A stretch of 64,000 nucleotides of DNA from an uncultured Lachnospiraceae bacterium. Its GTDB lineage: Bacteria; Bacillota; Clostridia; Lachnospirales; Lachnospiraceae. The stretch's first letter is position 1, and every line of letters begins with the position of its first letter. Below the pieces are notes generated by a model. It saw only the letters and a program-made list of their open reading frames with translations. It was not told the DNA's origin and made no database searches. This document shows positions 2,981-12,724 of this stretch, in pieces. The stretch is from the NCBI GenBank assembly GCA_947363565.1, contig CANAPP010000004.1, positions 1-64,000 on the forward strand. The letters are read 5' to 3'. The translations under genes and the position numbers were made by a program.

Positions 2981-3940
2981 ATGTTTGATTTAGAGAATTT
3001 TCCGGACAGCAGATCGGCAAAAGCGATGCTGTCTTATGTGACCCACGGGTGGTATGACAAGTCTTATATCGGCAAATGGCTTTATGAAGTCATGGGGATA
3101 GAGCTGGATGCGGCAGCAGGATATATTGAGACGCTCCCGGAGCAGTTATTCCCGGAGACAGCTACGTGGGGGCTTCGGTTCCACGAGGATAAATACGGGC
3201 TCCCGGTCAGGGAGGACCTCCCGGTGGAGGAACGGCGGATGCGGATTTTCCGGAAACGGGACCTGCGTTCGCCGATGACACCGAGCCGCATGGAAGAATA
3301 TCTGACCAACGCGGTCGGCATCGAAGCGCATGTTGCGGACTGTAACGACCCGGGGGAGCTTGGATATGTTCCTGAGCACCCGAATGTGTTCAAGGTGGTG
3401 TTCGTCACCGAGGAAACGCTTGACCCGCAGAAGATCCGGGATCTTCTGGCCGGGCTTAAGCAGTCGCATACCTCCTGCGTGATCAGCGACTGGGTGAAGG
3501 TAACCGTGGATCACCGGGAGCTTTGGAGGTTCCTGCTGAAAAATATAGACCTGCGGATGCGGATACCGTTCTTTAGTGCCATCATACCAGGCGGATCAAA
3601 GAATTACAACCCCAAAACAGGGCTGGCCGTGAAAGAGATCGGCATCACCGTTGAAGAGGGCATAGATTTCCCTGCCCTGTCAATAGGGACTGGCTGTCCT
3701 GTCCGGGAAGAGATGCGCTGCGTCCGCCCGTCCCACGGATTCGGTATTGACACATTGAAGCTCGTAGAGCCAGATACCAAGCTCCCGAAGCTTAAGACAG
3801 CGCTGTATTTCGACGGCCGGGAGGAAAGGATAGACGTCACCGTCTCCACCGTCAGGAGGAATTCCTGGCGCTTTGACGGGGAGGTCATCATGGATGGTTC
3901 AAGGTTATTTAATTCACTATTTGAAGAGGAGGTATTGTAA
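2981..3940 (+). CDS. Phage tail protein, YmfQ/DUF2313-like (XkdU-like)
   Basis: The start is ATG 2981, preceded by GAGGAGG about 5 bases upstream and lying 10 bases after the baseplate J stop. The product is 319 residues, longer than PBSX XkdU (about 190). The first 200 residues (GWYDKSYIGKWLYEVMG, WGLRFHEDKYG, PVEERRMRIFRKRDLRSP) match the family that joins baseplate to fibre. The remaining 120 residues hold an RIPFFSAIIPGG segment, a YNPKTGLAV strand and a FDGREERIDVTVSTVRR segment, which looks like an added beta domain. The next gene starts at the base after its stop codon. Confidence 0.8.
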   Translation: MFDLENFPDSRSAKAMLSYVTHGWYDKSYIGKWLYEVMGIELDAAAGYIETLPEQLFPETATWGLRFHEDKYGLPVREDLPVEERRMRIFRKRDLRSPMTPSRMEEYLTNAVGIEAHVADCNDPGELGYVPEHPNVFKVVFVTEETLDPQKIRDLLAGLKQSHTSCVISDWVKVTVDHRELWRFLLKNIDLRMRIPFFSAIIPGGSKNYNPKTGLAVKEIGITVEEGIDFPALSIGTGCPVREEMRCVRPSHGFGIDTLKLVEPDTKLPKLKTALYFDGREERIDVTVSTVRRNSWRFDGEVIMDGSRLFNSLFEEEVL

Positions 3941-4330
3941 ATGGCAAACAATAATGCGGTCATCACCCTGAAGGCAAGGGAGAACATGGTCAGGGCAAGG
4001 GCGGGTGAGCTGGTCACCATGCCGAAGATCGTCGGGATGGCCTTTGGCGACGGCGGGTGCGACGCTGAGGGCGAGGTGCTCGCGCCCACGGAAAGCCAGG
4101 GGACATTGAGGAATGAAACGCTCCGTAAGGAGATAGACGGATATACGTTCCTGTCCCAGACGACCTGCAGGTATGAGTGTACGCTCACGGAGTCCGAGCT
4201 GGCGGGAGGATATATCAGCGAGATCGGGCTTTATGATGAGAACGGGGATATCGTCTGTATCAAGTCCTTCCGGAAGAAGGGGAAGGATGACGACCTGGAG
4301 ATGACCTTTACGATCGACGACATTTTTTAG
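3941..4330 (+). CDS. Phage tail-fibre N-terminal/collar protein (DUF3751-like)
   Basis: A 129-residue protein abutting the upstream stop codon, with AGGAGG 9 bases before ATG. Motifs such as AITLKARENM-type N-terminus, AFGDGGCDAEG, the TFLSQTTCRYECTL strand, GGYISEIGLYDENGDIVCIKSF and KDDDLEMTFTI are those of the tail-collar fibre proteins found next to fibres in contractile-tail phages. It probably anchors the fibre encoded next to it to the baseplate. The GLYDENGD loop is characteristic of this group. Confidence 0.75.
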   Translation: MANNNAVITLKARENMVRARAGELVTMPKIVGMAFGDGGCDAEGEVLAPTESQGTLRNETLRKEIDGYTFLSQTTCRYECTLTESELAGGYISEIGLYDENGDIVCIKSFRKKGKDDDLEMTFTIDDIF

Positions 4331-4359
4331 ACGCTTGAGAACGGAAGGGGGGATACAGT

Positions 4360-5265
4360 ATGAAGGATTATACCACAGACAACCCGGTCTTTTCGGAGAG
4401 CATAAAGATCTTAGAGACCACGGATCCCGGGCATGCCGACAGAGTAAATGTAACGACGCAGCAGCTCCTTGAGAATACGCTTTTTCTGTATCAGGAGCTT
4501 AGGGAGCGGATAGAGGCGGTCCTGTCGGGGATAGCGTCCGACCTTGAAGCTTATTATACGTCAGAAGAGGTAGATGAAAAGATCGGCGTGATCCCGAAGT
4601 TCAAGATCGAGGTCGTGGATACACTTCCTGCATCTGAAATATCCGAGGCTACGGTATATCTGTTAAAGAGCGGTGCGGAGAGCCAGAACCTTTATACGGA
4701 ATATATCCGTGCAAATGGCGCGTGGGAGAAGCTTGGCACGCAGAAGGTAGACCTGTCGGGGTATTCGACGAAGGCGGATACGGTGAAGGGCGCGGCGATG
4801 AAGGATGCGAAGACCATCACCTTTACGAGGGGCGACGGGACAACCTTTGACATCACCGTGACCGGGACGACCTACGGGAATATGAAGGGGGCGACGGCCT
4901 CGGCGGCAGGAGGGGCAGGCTTAGTACCGGCACCGGCGGCAGGGGCAGCGAACCGTTACCTGCGCTGTGACGGCCAGTGGGGCGTGCCTCCGGATACAAA
5001 TACGACTTACGGGAATATGCGGGGAGCGACGGCTTCCGCAGCGGGGGCGGCAGGATTGGTGCCTGCACCTCCGGCCGGGGCGCAGGGGAAATTTTTCCGG
5101 GGTGACGGGACCTACCAGGCGATTGAAAACAGCGGCGTCCTGGCTTCGGCTACGGCACCGTCGAACACGAACCTTTTGTGGATAGACACGAGCAAGGGAG
5201 GGATCACGAAATATTATGATGCGAGTTCAAAGACATGGAAAACGACGGCGGCGGTCTGGGGGTGA
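4360..5265 (+). CDS. Phage tail fibre protein with two collagen-like/adhesin repeats
   Basis: A 301-residue protein. An N-terminal helical part (residues 1-70) precedes a segment with EVVDTLPASE and VYLLKSG, a beta module common in Clostridial phage fibres that reads out to WEKLGTQKVDLSGYSTK. Two imperfect repeats follow: TTYGNMKGATASAAGG / GLVPAPAAGA and TTYGNMRGATASAAGA / GLVPAPPAGA, about 50 residues apart. The C-terminal tryptophan-rich end (LLWIDTSKGG, SKTWKTTAAVWG) would form the tip or an attachment surface. The fibre is short for a receptor-binding protein. The Cys-rich gene follows after only 6 bases, so the two products may act together. Confidence 0.75.
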   Translation: MKDYTTDNPVFSESIKILETTDPGHADRVNVTTQQLLENTLFLYQELRERIEAVLSGIASDLEAYYTSEEVDEKIGVIPKFKIEVVDTLPASEISEATVYLLKSGAESQNLYTEYIRANGAWEKLGTQKVDLSGYSTKADTVKGAAMKDAKTITFTRGDGTTFDITVTGTTYGNMKGATASAAGGAGLVPAPAAGAANRYLRCDGQWGVPPDTNTTYGNMRGATASAAGAAGLVPAPPAGAQGKFFRGDGTYQAIENSGVLASATAPSNTNLLWIDTSKGGITKYYDASSKTWKTTAAVWG

Positions 5266-5271
5266 TATAGG

Positions 5272-6369
5272 ATGCTAACTGCTAGTCAGATAAACAGCTT
5301 AAAGGCCAGCGTGAAGGCGGAGATGGCCAGGAGGAGCGGTTACGGCTCCCTGGCGGAGTTCGCGGGCACGGCCTATGATTTTTTGGCGGTGCCGGCAGCA
5401 GGAGGGGTGATCAAAGCGGAGCACGGCCAGAAGACCGTGAACCTGATCTTAAAGGTCACGGATGTCAATAAACTAAAGAACGTCAACCAGGGGGATATCC
5501 TCCCGGATAAGCTGGATGCCAGCATACTGACCCACGTAAACACGCTGAAAAATGAATCCATGACGGGGAGCAAGTCGAGCTGCCGCGGGGCATGCACGGG
5601 GCTGTGCCTGGGGACATGTACTTCCGGATGCTCGGGGTGCTCAGGGTGTTCCGGGTGCGGAAGCAGTTGTTCCGGGAACTGTTATACCGGCTGTGCGGAT
5701 GGATGCGCGAGCGGGTGCACGAAGTCCTGCTCGGGGTGCAGCGGGTCATGCTCCAGTGGGTGCTCGGGGTACTGTGGGGGGTGCTATGGGAGCTGCGGCG
5801 GGTGTGATGGAAACTGTGGAAGCGGCTGCGGCGGATGCCAGGGCTGTAATGGCTGCGGGGGAGGCTGTGCTGCTGGCTGTGTGGGATGTAACACCGGTTG
5901 CGGTAACGGCTGTATGGGGAACTGTTATGGAGACTGCGAAGGAGGCGCTTATAGCAAATGCAATGGATGTGCCGGAAGCTGCTCCGCTGGCTGCGGGGGC
6001 TGTTCTGGCTGTGATGGCTGCGGGGGCTGCGGAAACGGATGTAACGTATGGTGCGGAAGTGGGTGCGGAAGTGGATGCAATAGTTGTTCAGGCGGCTGTA
6101 CCGGCTGTACTGGTTGTAATAGCTGTTCAGGCTGCAGCGGCACTTGCGGCGGGAATTGTTATACGGCATGTGCGGATGCATGTTCCTCTGTCTGCACGGC
6201 GTCAACCAGTGGGAGCTGCGGAAGCTCATGTTCTGCCGGCTGTTCTGGAAGCTGTGGAAACTCTTGTTCATCAAACTGCCAGAGCGGCTGCAAGAATAGC
6301 TGCTCGACCACCTGCTCATCGACCTGCTATTCCACCTGCACGAACCAGTGCTTCGGCAGTGCAAAATAA
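5272..6369 (+). CDS. Cys/Gly/Ser-repeat protein in the tail module, candidate radical SAM substrate
   Basis: A 365-residue protein in two parts. Residues 1-103 contain no cysteine and look like a folded domain or long leader ([30 protein letters not shown], then a helical stretch to [12 protein letters not shown]). From residue 104 to 360 I count 68 cysteines in 257 residues, spaced almost entirely C-x-x-C or C-x-x-x-C. The intervening residues are mainly Gly, Ser, Asn and Thr, with rare aromatics ([16 protein letters not shown]). The array opens with [13 protein letters not shown] and ends NQCFGSAK. It starts 6 bases after the tail-fibre stop and is followed by a small gene and a radical SAM/SPASM gene, which suggests post-translational modification of the cysteines or neighbouring residues. 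It is far too long for a usual RiPP precursor. Alternatives are a metal-binding or disulfide-rich fibre tip. No function is established from sequence alone. Confidence 0.85.
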
Positions 6370-6419
6370 TAATAGGTAACTCGGAAACAAAATAGATCAC
6401 AAAGAAAGGACGTAGTAAC

Positions 6420-6749
6420 ATGGAAAAGAAAGCAATGGAAAAGAAAGCAGTTGAGATCAAGGTAGAAAAAGGGATGCTGGAGACTCTGGAGGCCCGGTAT
6501 TATGATTACCGGGCGAAGCAGGACATCATCAATTCGGTGTTCGACCTGCACAAATTTGACAATGATGCGTTAGTAGTCAGCAGCGCCCCGTTCAGGGCTT
6601 TTGAGAAGGCATTTGCCGAGGCGAAGGTAAAATATGATGCGGCGATGGATATGGTCCGGGATACATATATCCCGCAGGATTTACGGGAAGCCGGCTGCAG
6701 GTGGGAAGTGGATTTCGACGAGGGTAAGCTTATCGTGACACCGGTGTAG
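6420..6749 (+). CDS. Small protein between Cys-repeat substrate and radical SAM maturase
   Basis: A 109-residue, highly charged, mostly helical protein that I do not recognise with certainty. It opens with a repeated MEKKAMEKKA, then has a KGMLETLEARYYDYRAKQD helix, a central SSAPFRAFEKAFAEAKVKYDAA helix, and a C-terminal beta end (GCRWEVDFDEGKLIVTPV). AAAGGA lies about 10 bases before ATG 6420; ATG 6435 is a possible second start. The maturase start lies 16 bases after its stop, so the genes are likely co-transcribed. Small accessory proteins next to Cys-repeat targets of radical SAM enzymes are known, and a substrate-recognition or chaperone role fits, but that is inference. Confidence 0.7.
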   Translation: MEKKAMEKKAVEIKVEKGMLETLEARYYDYRAKQDIINSVFDLHKFDNDALVVSSAPFRAFEKAFAEAKVKYDAAMDMVRDTYIPQDLREAGCRWEVDFDEGKLIVTPV

Positions 6750-6765
6750 AGGGCAGGTGATCAGT

Positions 6766-8106
6766 ATGGCGAAACGACGGTTTGAACAATTTGGCGATAA
6801 GATGGTCAGGCTCTTCCCAGAGCTGCATCCTTTTCCTGAGGACGGGGACAAAAGGGTATTGACGAAAACGGTAACGTTCCAGGTCACGGACGACTGCAAC
6901 CTGGCTTGTAAATATTGCTACCAGATCAACAAGGGAAAGCGCAGGATGTCACTGGAGACGGCAAAGAAGTTCGTGGATATGCTCCTTGACGCCACGCCGG
7001 AGAACAACAGCTATATCAACCCGGTAAACTCCCCGTTTTTGGTCATCGAGTTTATCGGCGGGGAGCCGTTCTTGGGGATAGGACTTATTGACCAGATCAT
7101 GGATTATTTTGTGGGGCAGGCATTTGAGCGGATGCATCCCTGGGCTACGCGGTACTGCGTGAGTATCTGCAGCAACGGTGTGCTCTACTTTGAGGAGGCC
7201 GTGCAGAGATTTTTGAATAAGCATCGTAACCACATGTCCCTGTCGGTGACGATCGACGGGAATAAGGAGCTTCACGATTCGTGCCGGGTGTTCCCGGACG
7301 GGAGCCCGAGCTATGACATCGCCGTGGCCGCGGCGAAGGGCTGGATGGACCGGGGAGGGTACATGGGGAGCAAGATCACCATCGCTCCCGGGAACATCAC
7401 TTACCTGTATGCGGCGCTGACCCATATGGTGGAGCTTGGCTACACGGAGATCAATGCAAACTGCGTGTATGAGAAGGGCTGGACACTTACCCACGCGCAG
7501 GAATTATACCGGCAGATGAAGCAGTTTGCGGATTACCTGCTGGAAAATGACCTGGACAACATTTACTGCTCTTTGTTCGAGGAGAATTTCTTTAAGCCGA
7601 AGCTGGAAGGGGACGACCAGAACTGGTGCGGAGGGACGGGGGCTATGCTCTCCTGCGACCCGGACGGGTATCTGTACCCGTGCATCCGGTATATGGAGAG
7701 CAGCCTGGGAAAAGACCAGGAGCCGGTACGCATCGGCCATGTGGATACGGGGCTGGTGACGACGGAGGAGGAGAAAGAAACGGTGCGGTGTCTTAACTGC
7801 ATCACCAGGCGGACCCAGAGCACAGATGAGTGCTATTACTGCCCGGTCGCCGAGGGGTGTTCCTGGTGCAGTGCCTATAATTACCAGGAGTTCGGGACGG
7901 CGGACAGGCGCGCGACGTATATCTGTGAGATGCATAAGGCCAGGAGCCTGGCGAATGTGTATTTCTGGAATAAATGGTACGGGAAGACGGGCACGCCGCA
8001 GAAGTTCAAGATGCACTGCCCGAAGGAGTGGGCGCTGCCGATCATTGGTGAAGGGGAGTATGAGTTTTTATTAAAGATTTCAGGAGGTATTGAGGATGAG
8101 GATTAG
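6766..8106 (+). CDS. Radical SAM/SPASM peptide maturase
   Basis: A 446-residue enzyme. ATG 6766 is chosen over GTG 6757 because AGGTG at 6755-6759 then serves as ribosome site. The radical SAM cluster motif CNLACKYC lies at residues 44-51 (C44, C48, C51), followed by the SAM-binding GGEP at 98-101 and an SVTIDG strand near 160. The C-terminal SPASM/twitch region has cysteines at 288, 297, 306, 342, 345, 356, 359, 365, 368 and 387 (SCDPDGYLYPC, CLNC, ECYYCPVAEGCSWC), enough for two auxiliary iron-sulfur clusters. Such enzymes install thioether, C-C or epimer modifications in ribosomally made peptides. The Cys-repeat protein two genes upstream is the obvious candidate substrate. I recall an NCBI family named radical SAM peptide maturase with CXXX-repeat targets, which this resembles; membership cannot be tested here. 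Confidence 0.9.
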   Translation: MAKRRFEQFGDKMVRLFPELHPFPEDGDKRVLTKTVTFQVTDDCNLACKYCYQINKGKRRMSLETAKKFVDMLLDATPENNSYINPVNSPFLVIEFIGGEPFLGIGLIDQIMDYFVGQAFERMHPWATRYCVSICSNGVLYFEEAVQRFLNKHRNHMSLSVTIDGNKELHDSCRVFPDGSPSYDIAVAAAKGWMDRGGYMGSKITIAPGNITYLYAALTHMVELGYTEINANCVYEKGWTLTHAQELYRQMKQFADYLLENDLDNIYCSLFEENFFKPKLEGDDQNWCGGTGAMLSCDPDGYLYPCIRYMESSLGKDQEPVRIGHVDTGLVTTEEEKETVRCLNCITRRTQSTDECYYCPVAEGCSWCSAYNYQEFGTADRRATYICEMHKARSLANVYFWNKWYGKTGTPQKFKMHCPKEWALPIIGEGEYEFLLKISGGIEDED

Positions 8107-8407
8107 ATTTGGAGAGATCACAAAGGAAGTCAAGCGGTTCACTAACGAGATCAACCGGACGGAATGGGGGGATACGAGGGAGCAGCTTTCGGTGGACATG
8201 GAGGAGACGACGGCTTCGGTCGCGGAGCTGGACGGGCTGTTCATCCAGGATTTCCAGGGGGAGCTTACCCTGGTCGATGAAGATCAGGAAGAACGGTTTA
8301 CAGGCTTTAAGTATGAGGGCATCCGGAAGAATTATGACAGCAAGGGCAGGCAGGTGACGGTGATGTTCAGGAAGTCCCAGGAGGGGCAGGAGGAAGCGGC
8401 AGGATAA
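8096..8407 (+). CDS. Small unknown protein coupled to the radical SAM gene
   Basis: A 103-residue protein, not recognised. ATG 8096 has AGGAGG at 8082-8087 and overlaps the last 11 bases of the maturase gene, which implies translational coupling. The sequence is charged, with a helical start (RFGEITKEVKRFTNEINRTEW), a middle part with GLFIQDFQGELTLVDEDQEE and an end GRQVTVMFRKSQEG. It has no cysteine and no membrane segment. It could be a phage structural protein or a partner of the maturase. Tight coupling favours the second, but similar small genes also occur between tail and lysis modules. Confidence 0.65.
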   Translation: MRIRFGEITKEVKRFTNEINRTEWGDTREQLSVDMEETTASVAELDGLFIQDFQGELTLVDEDQEERFTGFKYEGIRKNYDSKGRQVTVMFRKSQEGQEEAAG

Positions 8408-8511
8408 TGGCCGGCAAATTAAGTGATAAGTAGATGAAGGGCAAGGAGGTGGAGGGCAGGATGAAGATCAGGGCAGAGCCGTGATAAAAGATGTGCAGTT
8501 AAACGAGTTAG

Positions 8512-8537
8512 AGCCGTCCGAAAGGGGCGGCTTTTCT
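8512..8537 (+). terminator. Hairpin terminator before the lysis genes
   Basis: AGCCGTCC (8512-8519) pairs with GGGCGGCT (8525-8532) across the 5-base loop GAAAG, with one G-T pair, and is followed by TTTCT. It lies ahead of the XhlA-like start and separates the tail/maturase block from the lysis block. The T run is short, so read-through is likely. Confidence 0.6.
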
Positions 8538-8558
8538 GATGGAAGTGAGGTGGTAGAT

Positions 8559-8768
8559 ATGCCGGATACGGTGTTAGTTGCGATATTATCCTTGATCGGC
8601 ACACTGGCCGGAAGCTTTGGGGGCACCCAGTTGATCAAGTACAGGATAGAGCAGTTAGAAAAAAAGGTGGAAAAACACAATTCTGTTATGGAACGCACAT
8701 ATCTATTAGAAGAGAAAATAAAGGTGGCGAACCACAGGATAGAAGATCTGGAAAGAAGGGAAGAATAA
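8559..8768 (+). CDS. XhlA-like small membrane protein with coiled coil
   Basis: ATG 8559 is used because GAGGTGG lies 5 bases upstream and because the longer frame from 8481 would run through a terminator hairpin. The 69-residue product has an N-terminal membrane segment (TVLVAILSLIGTLAGSFGG) followed by a coiled coil with LEKKVEKHNSVMERTYLLEEK and IKVANHRIEDLE. This layout and its place just before the holin match small prophage proteins of the XhlA/haemolysin type, which assist lysis at the membrane. The holin start is 1 base after its stop. Confidence 0.75.
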   Translation: MPDTVLVAILSLIGTLAGSFGGTQLIKYRIEQLEKKVEKHNSVMERTYLLEEKIKVANHRIEDLERREE

Positions 8769-8769
8769 G

Positions 8770-9063
8770 ATGGAAGAATTTGTAAATTATATTAAACCGG
8801 AGCTGATGATCGTAGCGATTGTATTATATTTCCTGGGAATGTGGTTTAAACAGGCGGCGTTCCTGAAAGATAAGTATATCCCTCTTGTGCTGGGAGTGCT
8901 GGGGATATTTATCTGCGGGCTTTGGGTGGCATCCGTGCACCAGTTCGAGGATGCACAGGCAGCATTCTCGGGAATCTTCGCCGCAGTCACGCAGGGGATC
9001 CTGGTGGCAGGGTTAAGTACATACGTTAACCAGATCATCAAGCAGTTGAATAAGAATGAGTAG
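8770..9063 (+). CDS. Phage holin
   Basis: A 97-residue protein with about three hydrophobic segments (LMIVAIVLYFLGMWF, IPLVLGVLGIFICGLWVA, AFSGIFAAVTQGILVAGLSTYV) and a short charged tail (KQLNKNE). Size, topology and position between the XhlA-like gene and the lysin fit a holin that lets the lysin reach the wall. I think it belongs to the holin_5-type group often seen in Clostridial prophages, but the exact family is uncertain. A strong terminator begins at its stop codon. Confidence 0.85.
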   Translation: MEEFVNYIKPELMIVAIVLYFLGMWFKQAAFLKDKYIPLVLGVLGIFICGLWVASVHQFEDAQAAFSGIFAAVTQGILVAGLSTYVNQIIKQLNKNE

Positions 9064-9103
9064 GGGACGCGTTGCAGCGTCCCCTTTTTGTGCGGCGTCG
9101 CAC
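9063..9103 (+). terminator. Strong terminator plus second small hairpin between holin and lysin
   Basis: GGGGACGC (9063-9070) and GCGTCCCC (9077-9084) form a perfect 8-bp stem with loop GTTGCA, followed by TTTTT (9085-9089): a textbook intrinsic terminator. It is immediately followed by a 5-bp hairpin GTGCG-GCGT-CGCAC (9090-9103), ending just before the lysin ribosome site. No promoter is evident between it and the lysin, so lysin expression must come from read-through or antitermination. Confidence 0.85.
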
Positions 9104-9120
9104 AAAGAAAGGAGTACAAA

Positions 9121-10614
9121 ATGAAATATCCAGATATATCACATCACCATCCGGTCAACGACTGGACAAAGGCGAAGAAAAATGCAGCTTTTTTGATATC
9201 CAAGGCAACCCAGGGGACGTCTTATGTAGATGATACCCTGGACAGCTTTATTGCCGGCTGTGAGAAGAATAAGCTTCCATACTGGCTGTACAGCTTCATT
9301 ACGAGAGGAAAGGAGCTTGAATCGGCGAAATTCCTTGTTAAGACATGTAAAGGGAAGGTTGGTCCTTATTTCCGGGGATACTGCCTGGATGTCGAGAAAG
9401 ACCCGGCCAATGGCACATATCCGACGGCATCCGGGGCGAAGAAGGCGCTTGAGTATCTGGAATCCCTTGGCGGGAAGGTACTACTGTATACGGGATATGG
9501 TGACCATGAAAAATATAAGGATGTGATCAGGGAAAGAAAATCCTCGACTGCCTGGTGGGAGGCAAGGTACGGGGAAAATAACGGCTCGTACAGCAGCAGA
9601 TATCCCTGCCACAGCGGTGTTGACCTGCACCAGTTCACCAGCCTTGGGACATGCCCCGGGATCAGCGGGAAATGCGACCTTAACCGCATGACAGGGACGA
9701 AGGATGAGGCTTGGTTTACCGGTGCTGAAAAAACCACGGTGCCGGCTAAAAAGACAGTGGACAGGCTGATCGCGCTGGCAGAGGATGAGGTCGGGTATCT
9801 GGAGAAGAAATCCAACAAAGACCTTGACCACAAGACGAAGAATGCCGGGAAGAATAACTACACAAAGTACAATGCCGTGTTCGGCGTGAATGGCTGCTAT
9901 TGGTGCGCGTATTTCATTTGCTGGCTGTTTTATACGTTATGTGGGAATAATAAGGCTGACGCCAAGAAAATGCTCTGTGGGGCATTATCGGGGGCTTGTG
10001 AGACACTTAGACAAGCTTTCATTAAGCAGAAAAGATATTATGTCAAAAATCCAAAGGTCGGTGACTTGGTTTTCTTTAAGGGAACACGCCATGCGGGGGC
10101 GAACCATATCGCACTGGCCGTAAAGGTTACGAAGGATAAACTTTATACTATTGAGGGGAATACGTCAATGGGTAAGGGCGTGGTCGATAACGGCGGAGGG
10201 GTTGCGAAAAAGACGTATGCGCTCAGTTATTCTAAGATCATGGGCTATGGAAGGCCGGTATATGAGAAGGATGTTGAAAGCTCCCAGGCGAAGCCGTCAG
10301 GCAGTGCGTCGGCGGGCGGCAGCATATCTTCTAGCAGCGCATCTTCCGGCAATGCATCAGCAGGCAGCAGTCCTTCAACCAGCAGTCCGGACAAGCCGTC
10401 ATCCTCTGCCGGGTATTATAAGAAATATACCGGGAAATCAGAGCGGATAGATGATGTGTTCAAGGCTGTCGGGGTCCCGGCGAAGTTCAGGGATACGTAT
10501 ATGAAACGTAAGCCGGTGGCGTCTAAGAACGGCATCAGTAATTATAAGGGGAGTGCAACCCAGAATCTGAAGTTAGTGAAGCTTGCGAAGGCTGGGAAGC
10601 TTAAGAAGGTATAG
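9121..10614 (+). CDS. Prophage endolysin: GH25 muramidase plus CHAP amidase/peptidase
   Basis: ATG 9121 has GGAGT 6-7 bases upstream; an upstream GTG at 9088 lies in the terminator. The 497-residue protein starts with a glycosyl hydrolase 25 domain (residues 1-200: YPDISHHHPVNDW, GYCLDVEKDP with D90 and E92 as the DxE pair, TAWWEARYG, VDLHQFTS). A CHAP domain follows at about 225-385, with CYWCAYFICWLF supplying the nucleophile, NHIALAVKV the His, and IEGNTS. After a Ser/Ala/Gly linker (about 395-435) comes a C-terminal wall-binding motif ending NLKLVKLAKAGKLKKV. Two catalytic activities would cut both glycan and peptide bonds of peptidoglycan. It lacks a signal peptide, consistent with holin-dependent export. 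Confidence 0.92.
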   Translation: MKYPDISHHHPVNDWTKAKKNAAFLISKATQGTSYVDDTLDSFIAGCEKNKLPYWLYSFITRGKELESAKFLVKTCKGKVGPYFRGYCLDVEKDPANGTYPTASGAKKALEYLESLGGKVLLYTGYGDHEKYKDVIRERKSSTAWWEARYGENNGSYSSRYPCHSGVDLHQFTSLGTCPGISGKCDLNRMTGTKDEAWFTGAEKTTVPAKKTVDRLIALAEDEVGYLEKKSNKDLDHKTKNAGKNNYTKYNAVFGVNGCYWCAYFICWLFYTLCGNNKADAKKMLCGALSGACETLRQAFIKQKRYYVKNPKVGDLVFFKGTRHAGANHIALAVKVTKDKLYTIEGNTSMGKGVVDNGGGVAKKTYALSYSKIMGYGRPVYEKDVESSQAKPSGSASAGGSISSSSASSGNASAGSSPSTSSPDKPSSSAGYYKKYTGKSERIDDVFKAVGVPAKFRDTYMKRKPVASKNGISNYKGSATQNLKLVKLAKAGKLKKV

Positions 10615-12641: not shown

Positions 12642-12724
12642 TGCGGAGAAAGGGACTTGAACCCTCACAGGATTGCTCCCACTAGAACCTGAATCTAGCG
12701 CGTCTGCCATTCCGCCATCTCCGC
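12642..12724 (-). tRNA. tRNA-Leu (anticodon CAG)
   Basis: On the minus strand the gene starts GCGGAGATGGCGGAATGG and ends in the acceptor complement TCTCCGC plus discriminator A. The anticodon stem-loop is CTAGA-TTCAGGT-TCTAG, giving anticodon CAG for leucine CUG codons. A long variable arm (GTGGGAGCAATCCTGT region) and the GGTTCAAGTCC T-loop fit a class II tRNA. CCA is not encoded. The 3' end faces the prophage side, the usual orientation for integration into a tRNA gene. Confidence 0.95.

Follow-up and report, generated by a model that had tools for sequence, protein, structure and literature searches.

A cassette of three genes in a prophage remnant of an uncultured Lachnospiraceae bacterium on balance appears to be a phage branch of the CXXX-repeat radical S-adenosylmethionine (SAM) system, cross-linking a giant tail-associated protein. 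The window analysed here is a stretch of 64,000 nucleotides (positions 1 to 64,000 of contig CANAPP010000004.1, assembly GCA_947363565.1), and the remnant lies at its left end, where its left side is cut by the contig end. The cassette encodes a 365-residue protein with a long cysteine-repeat domain, a small helper protein, and a radical SAM/SPASM maturase of the TIGR04115 family. The same three genes (substrate, helper, maturase) were found again at more than 60 distinct phage loci.

Conservation of the cassette

Scans for relatives of the maturase yielded 44 loci in genomes (many of them distant) and 80 loci in viral contigs. The family was present in about 2% of genomes in the family- and order-level samples and in about 1% in the class-level sample. 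Pairing of enzyme and substrate was counted over 68 distinct loci that were treated as phage-type; of these, at least L014 is not from a phage. An open reading frame (ORF) with CX2/CX3 repeats lies no more than 3.5 kb from the maturase in 67 of the 68, on the same strand in 66, and the sole unpaired locus stops at a contig edge. More distant sequence of the same length held five repeat ORFs, all at loci that already had several. The order of the genes varies – the substrate is upstream of the maturase in 41 loci, downstream in 24, and on both sides in 2. The original prediction, made from the sequence of the window alone, had treated the enzyme and the Cys-rich protein as a conserved unit, and this pairing supports it.

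Substrates at the phage loci range from 190 to 1072 aa. The comparison of cysteine arrays among relatives that had been proposed with the prediction showed that array length differs between phages whose enzymes are 82–88% identical (73 vs 86 Cys in L053 and L054, 72 vs 41 in L062 and L063). Two single phage loci each carry an array of five Cys-repeat ORFs (L071 852-7262 and L076 3172-7216), and one of these ORFs is 968 aa long.

The cysteine-repeat protein

The 365-residue protein was predicted to have 68 cysteines packed near its C-terminal end. The count is correct: all 68 are in residues 104–365 (262 residues), and residues 1–103 have none. Of the 67 intervals between cysteines, 65 are of 3 or 4 residues (45 of 4 and 20 of 3), while 20,000 shuffled sequences with unchanged composition averaged 16.7 such intervals and never exceeded 34. 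A neighbouring target with CXXX repeats is expected of TIGR04115 maturases, and this protein is one. The cysteines are encoded by 38 TGC and 30 TGT codons, serine uses all six of its codons, and no strong tandem array was seen in the DNA of the gene; the mixture of synonymous codons without a strong DNA repeat shows that selection acts on the protein level. Six Cys codons at a spacing of 4 occur at 10 overlapping sites in the 3.26-Mb genome, every one of them inside this gene.

The repeat domain has only one arginine and four lysines. In 5061 repeat residues, Asp and Glu together make up 2.9% and proline 0.0%, with a chain rich in Gly, Ser and Thr and a mean Cys spacing near 3.7. The absence of proline and this spacing both speak for a regular backbone. 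An AlphaFold2 model of the Cys domain was uninformative (predicted local distance difference test, pLDDT, about 30), and its sole match among viral folds was an unstudied phage ‘TNFR-Cys domain-containing’ protein.

Residues 1–100 were modelled as a folded helical block with pLDDT mostly 80–92. This N-terminal domain is likely to be where the maturase recognizes its substrate, docks on it, or both. The complete set of leaders (alignment A5) proved too varied to scan with, and a narrower set was used to search with the domain; among the matches listed, 11 of 11 newly examined proteins bear Cys repeats, and a maturase was visible in the available stretch at 9 of the 11 loci. A few phages (L015, L029, L090, L094) have this domain at the C-terminal end instead. 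The entire protein had no match in NCBIfam or Pfam, and the N-terminal domain had none among annotated phages.

The maturase and the helper

The maturase matches NCBIfam TIGR04115 (‘CXXX-repeat target’) over the whole profile (1–359 of 359) with 499 bits and an E value of 9.5e-150, above the curated cut-off of 350 bits. The next-best relevant models were those of PapB (NF047865), at 155 bits against a cut-off of 340, and of the SCIFF maturase (TIGR03974), at 96 bits against 425; by score the enzyme is not a PapB. Its best solved relative is CteB (PDB 5wgg, E 1.7e-20). As predicted, this is a radical SAM enzyme with SPASM cysteines: the CxxxCxxC motif is complete (C44, C48 and C51), and seven more cysteines (C288, C306, C356, C359, C365, C368 and C387) have SPASM-like spacing and are invariant among aligned relatives. 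A stretch of about 33 residues lies ahead of the radical SAM domain. Elsewhere in the host genome is another radical SAM/SPASM gene (G000:C25:11105-12148), a distant one that scores 124 bits to TIGR04115, below the cut-off.

Maturase ORFs at nine loci (L067, L071, L076, L089, L098, L099, L119, L029 and L126) contain insertions of intein/Hint type, two apiece in L119 and L029. The sites of insertion are the CxxxCxxC motif or the WCGG/SPASM site; the insertion in L099 was recognized from the alignment and from an intein-containing NCBIfam model. Insertions at catalytic cysteines suggest that the maturase is active and important. At another nine loci (L091, L100, L102, L104, L107, L112, L113, L116 and L117) the maturase ORF is open only if TAG is read as a residue, and in L122 only if TGA is. 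This reading resembles that of stop-recoded gut phages, and under it L091 and L122 also yield long Cys-repeat proteins.

In most loci the maturase gene directly follows one for a helper of about 90–120 aa (family A3). The TIGR04116 model (‘CXXX repeat peptide modification system protein’) matched neither the window helper nor its relatives, but an hhalign comparison of the two families points to a remote relationship (probability 90.5%, E 1.3e-6). The helper was modelled with a pLDDT of 93 as a two-helix hairpin with a small sheet. This model had no fold match in the PDB at E<=0.001, and its best viral matches were three uncharacterised proteins (E 1.6e-3 to 1.8e-2).

The fourth gene of the original prediction, which overlaps the end of the maturase gene, is not part of the unit. 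Its 103-aa product has no informative family match and no relative at any other locus; it was rejected as a member of the cassette, and the conserved cassette is therefore one of three genes.

Location in the late operon

All four ORFs are on the strand and in the late operon where they had been placed, with tail fibre genes upstream and a holin and an endolysin downstream (Table 1). The 301-aa fibre-like protein matches only phrogs of unknown function. Relatives of the 95-aa pre-holin protein are present at L011, L055 and L059. The right edge of the prophage is near a tRNA-Leu gene, which is the probable attachment site, and host genes lie beyond it. The prophage DNA had no match among annotated phages.

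Table 1. Features of the prophage remnant and its right edge, in window coordinates
Feature	Position	Strand	Basis or remark
Phage tail-collar fibre protein, N-terminal part	3941..4330	+	PF12571 E 1.6e-7; phrog_1780 E 5.4e-23
Second tail-fibre-like protein, 301 aa, Gly/Ala-rich repeats	4360..5265	+	Position; directly upstream of Cys-repeat gene
Cys-repeat protein, 365 aa	5272-6369	+	N-terminal domain and repeat domain
N-terminal helical domain, residues 1-103	5272..5580	+	Kept in aligned relatives; AlphaFold2
CX2/CX3 repeat domain, 262 aa, 68 Cys	5581..6366	+	Proposed maturase substrate
Helper, 109 aa, family A3	6420..6749	+	Putative remote relative of NCBIfam TIGR04116
Radical SAM/SPASM maturase, 446 aa	6766..8106, ATG start	+	TIGR04115 family
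103-aa protein	8096..8407	+	Translationally coupled; overlaps maturase stop
95-aa pre-holin protein	8481..8768	+	phrog_1863 E 6.4e-14
Holin, Hol44, superfamily V	8770..9063	+	PF16079 E 1.3e-27
Endolysin, GH25 and CHAP	9088..10614	+	PF01183 E 2.3e-15; PF05257 E 6.5e-8
tRNA-Leu	12642..12724	-	ARAGORN; right prophage edge

The predicted tail and lysis setting is not peculiar to the window. In a sample of 80 proteins encoded near the cassette at about two dozen loci, the named families seen most often were tail protein, baseplate J and Gp48, tail fibre, amidase/endolysin, and holin. L011 and L019 have baseplate and tail genes ahead of the cassette and an endolysin behind it, and L011 also has a holin. 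The repeats of L067 are joined in one protein with an ALK/LTK glycine-rich domain (E 8e-25), and in L099 the part N-terminal to the repeats has a weak match to Disaggr_repeat (E 0.0019, below the Pfam cut-off). No signal peptide was seen at the phage loci, and there was no match there to the tested ATP-binding cassette (ABC) exporters, to TatC or, by blastp, to TIGR04119, except for TatC at the non-phage L014. In this locus (3678-9254, from a rumen Lachnospiraceae) a phage-type repeat protein and maturase are beside the TatC match, a possible Tat-signal protein (Tat, twin-arginine translocation), and non-phage genes; it is possibly a domesticated cassette.

Cysteine repeats in jumbo phages

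Salmonella phage SPN3US and its relatives have two radical SAM genes and, upstream of them, two ORFs of about 130 aa with 20–21 cysteines at the same spacing (in SPN3US, NC_027402, L135 2094-2486 and 2497-2901). In these Salmonella and Erwinia jumbo phages the radical SAM locus adjoins virion structural genes. The annotation of SPN3US omits the first repeat ORF and calls the second in another frame, leaving the GenBank record without either, and in phage Phobos genes are called on the strand opposite to the repeat ORFs. Relatives of the N-terminal part of the first ORF were found in 69 records, and most of the Salmonella ones have no annotation there. Cronobacter phage CR5 also has repeats; none were seen in the region read of Campylobacter phage CP21, whose radical SAM genes are distant. 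Asp and Glu are absent from the five jumbo-phage repeat domains read.

The published search of the SPN3US virion proteome drew on 273 SPN3US sequences, with carbamidomethyl-Cys set as fixed (PMC10052503). To judge from the GenBank record, peptides of the repeat ORFs were probably not searchable in it. SPN3US is a cultured phage with amber mutants and published virion proteomes (mass spectra in PMC5105663, PMC5694885 and PMC10052503), which makes the idea of cross-linked virion proteins testable.

Proposed function and alternatives

Late in infection, the phage would make a protein whose N-terminal domain is folded and whose long repeat domain is of the Cys-Gly-Ser/Thr type. In the anaerobic cytoplasm, the helper and the N-terminal domain would deliver this protein to the SPASM radical SAM enzyme. 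The latter would take hydrogen atoms from the residues that separate the cysteines and bond the Cys sulfur there, giving thioethers of the sactionine/ranthipeptide type. Thioether cross-links made by the maturase are the most likely modification of the repeats because its nearest characterised relatives make such bonds. A PapB-type Cys-Asp/Glu cross-link was rejected as the general bond at the Asp/Glu content given above, which would leave Gly, Ser, Thr, Asn or Ala as candidate acceptors. Cross-linking could stiffen the floppy, proline-free chain into a rigid rod or mat that resists proteases and, without an exporter, would be retained in the cell until lysis. The operon position, the fusions, and the lack of export point to a product most likely carried on the virion, as an accessory of the tail tip or fibre for attachment or protection.

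Several observations weigh against this account. Fusions to other domains are few, and the domain match in L099 is under the Pfam cut-off. The scarcity of Asp and Glu means that PapB chemistry is not directly transferable. Some phages have repeats in proteins without the N-terminal domain, and a recognition role of this domain is therefore not general. The gap between fibre and lysis genes also hosts phage accessory genes whose products are outside the virion, and no mass spectrum of any such Cys-repeat protein was found.

A rival that seems rather unlikely is that the repeats are modified, yet the product is no part of the virion. It would be a late accessory of the moron type that leaves the cell at lysis or stays in the lysogen. 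It might, for example, act like a bacteriocin, exclude superinfection or coat the surface, roles that the bacterial CXXX peptides may also have. Bacterial relatives beside exporters, LanKC and regulators are consistent with this, as are the phage-type protein of L014 next to a TatC match and non-phage genes and the pre-holin site, a usual place for accessory genes. However, neither exporter nor signal peptide was seen at phage loci, substrates of 190–1072 aa are unlike bacteriocins, repeats are fused to adhesin-like domains, and the neighbours are tail and baseplate genes in many unrelated phages. More doubtful still is that the repeats form a metal-binding, [Fe-S]-binding or disulfide-rich protein and that the radical SAM enzyme acts elsewhere, for example on another tail protein. 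Disulfides have been invoked for Cys-rich tail proteins (PMC9723712), and the literature searched yielded no product of the enzyme family. Yet the pairing holds at 67 of 68 loci despite the varied gene order and recurs both in bacterial CXXX systems and in jumbo phages, where the enzyme is distant, while the Campylobacter phage whose radical SAM gene is distant shows no repeats in the region read. It is barely conceivable that the ORF is an artefact of GC-rich repetitive DNA read out of frame: other frames of the same DNA also hold long ORFs, but synonymous codons are mixed with no strong DNA repeat, the same frame and a conserved N-terminal domain are found across many phages, and the Cys spacing is far beyond that of shuffles, in a pattern unique in the genome.

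If the repeat proteins are cross-linked and carried on the virion, phages build large chemically cross-linked structural proteins by radical enzymes, and no report of such a virion modification was found. The CXXX-repeat family would gain a biological setting, and the proteins could yield stable cross-linked materials that are genetically encoded. It is tentatively suggested that many phages, from prophages of gut Bacillota to Salmonella and Erwinia jumbo phages, bear giant virion proteins cross-linked by radical SAM enzymes, a widespread and overlooked tail modification. It could have been overlooked because the genes are of low complexity and often unannotated, and because the proteins are poor in trypsin sites and missed by searches that assume free cysteines.

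Comparison with known systems

Bacterial CXXX systems were seen in Anaerococcus, Dielma, Ruminiclostridium, Prevotella and others. Their loci combine peptides of roughly 60–190 aa with TIGR04116, with TIGR04119 as a separate protein or a fusion to the maturase, and with genes for ABC transporters or Tat, and they adjoin exporters, class III lanthionine synthetase (LanKC), and regulators. The phage cassettes share the TIGR04115 maturase and cysteines at a spacing of 3–4 in Gly/Ser/Thr-rich chains, and their helper may be a remote relative of TIGR04116. They differ in their longer substrates, many with a folded N- or C-terminal domain, and in their tail/lysis operon. Neither the TIGR04119 second maturase nor the ABC/Tat export of a complete CXXX system was detected at phage loci. 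In a tree, the bacterial enzymes group as a single clade inside the phage enzymes. The alternative to a derivation of the bacterial systems from phage ones was not rejected (approximately unbiased test, p 0.18), and no direction is claimed. L137 (MT837480), labelled Bacteriophage sp., is probably a bacterial contig; its CXXX peptide system is of the Bacteroidota type and includes TatC and a Tat-like signal. The maturase in unrelated contexts with other substrates had been named as a finding that would count against the original prediction. It was borne out by half: relatives do occur in bacteria outside phages, and their shorter substrates are of the same repeat type.

The PapB and SCIFF/CteB enzymes share the CxxxCxxC motif and the SPASM layout. 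The phage maturase is far under their cut-offs, has only its short stretch before the radical SAM domain, and is encoded beside repeats nearly without Asp or Glu. PapB acts on Cys-X3-Asp/Glu motifs (PMC9413430); the phage repeats are not of this type, and position i+4 is usually Cys. Viruses of anoxic methane environments have Cys-rich tail spikes and, in one huge virus, 15 radical SAM genes (PMC9723712). In that study the cysteines were taken to serve disulfides and host entry and were not connected with the radical SAM enzymes.

The SPN3US-type locus (gp102/gp103) likewise has Cys-repeat ORFs beside radical SAM genes, and the best NCBIfam match of gp103 is TIGR04115. It differs in an enzyme that is about 25% identical, with gp103 at 126 of 350 bits, under the TIGR04115 cut-off, and in its short substrates, another N-terminal part, and two radical SAM enzymes.

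The CXXX-repeat families are reportedly described in a 2011 J. Bacteriol. paper; to our knowledge the family was named from genomes, with no known product. The prediction had also supposed that no phage tail protein modified in this way was known. No paper uniting phage, radical SAM and Cys-repeat proteins was found; the class of enzyme and substrate had been named already, as TIGR04115, with no characterised product found. The phage system is thus not categorically new, with both its family and its repeat type already named. As far as the literature found shows, what is new relative to the named systems is the size of the substrates, their architecture, the phage-tail setting, and the reach of the system.

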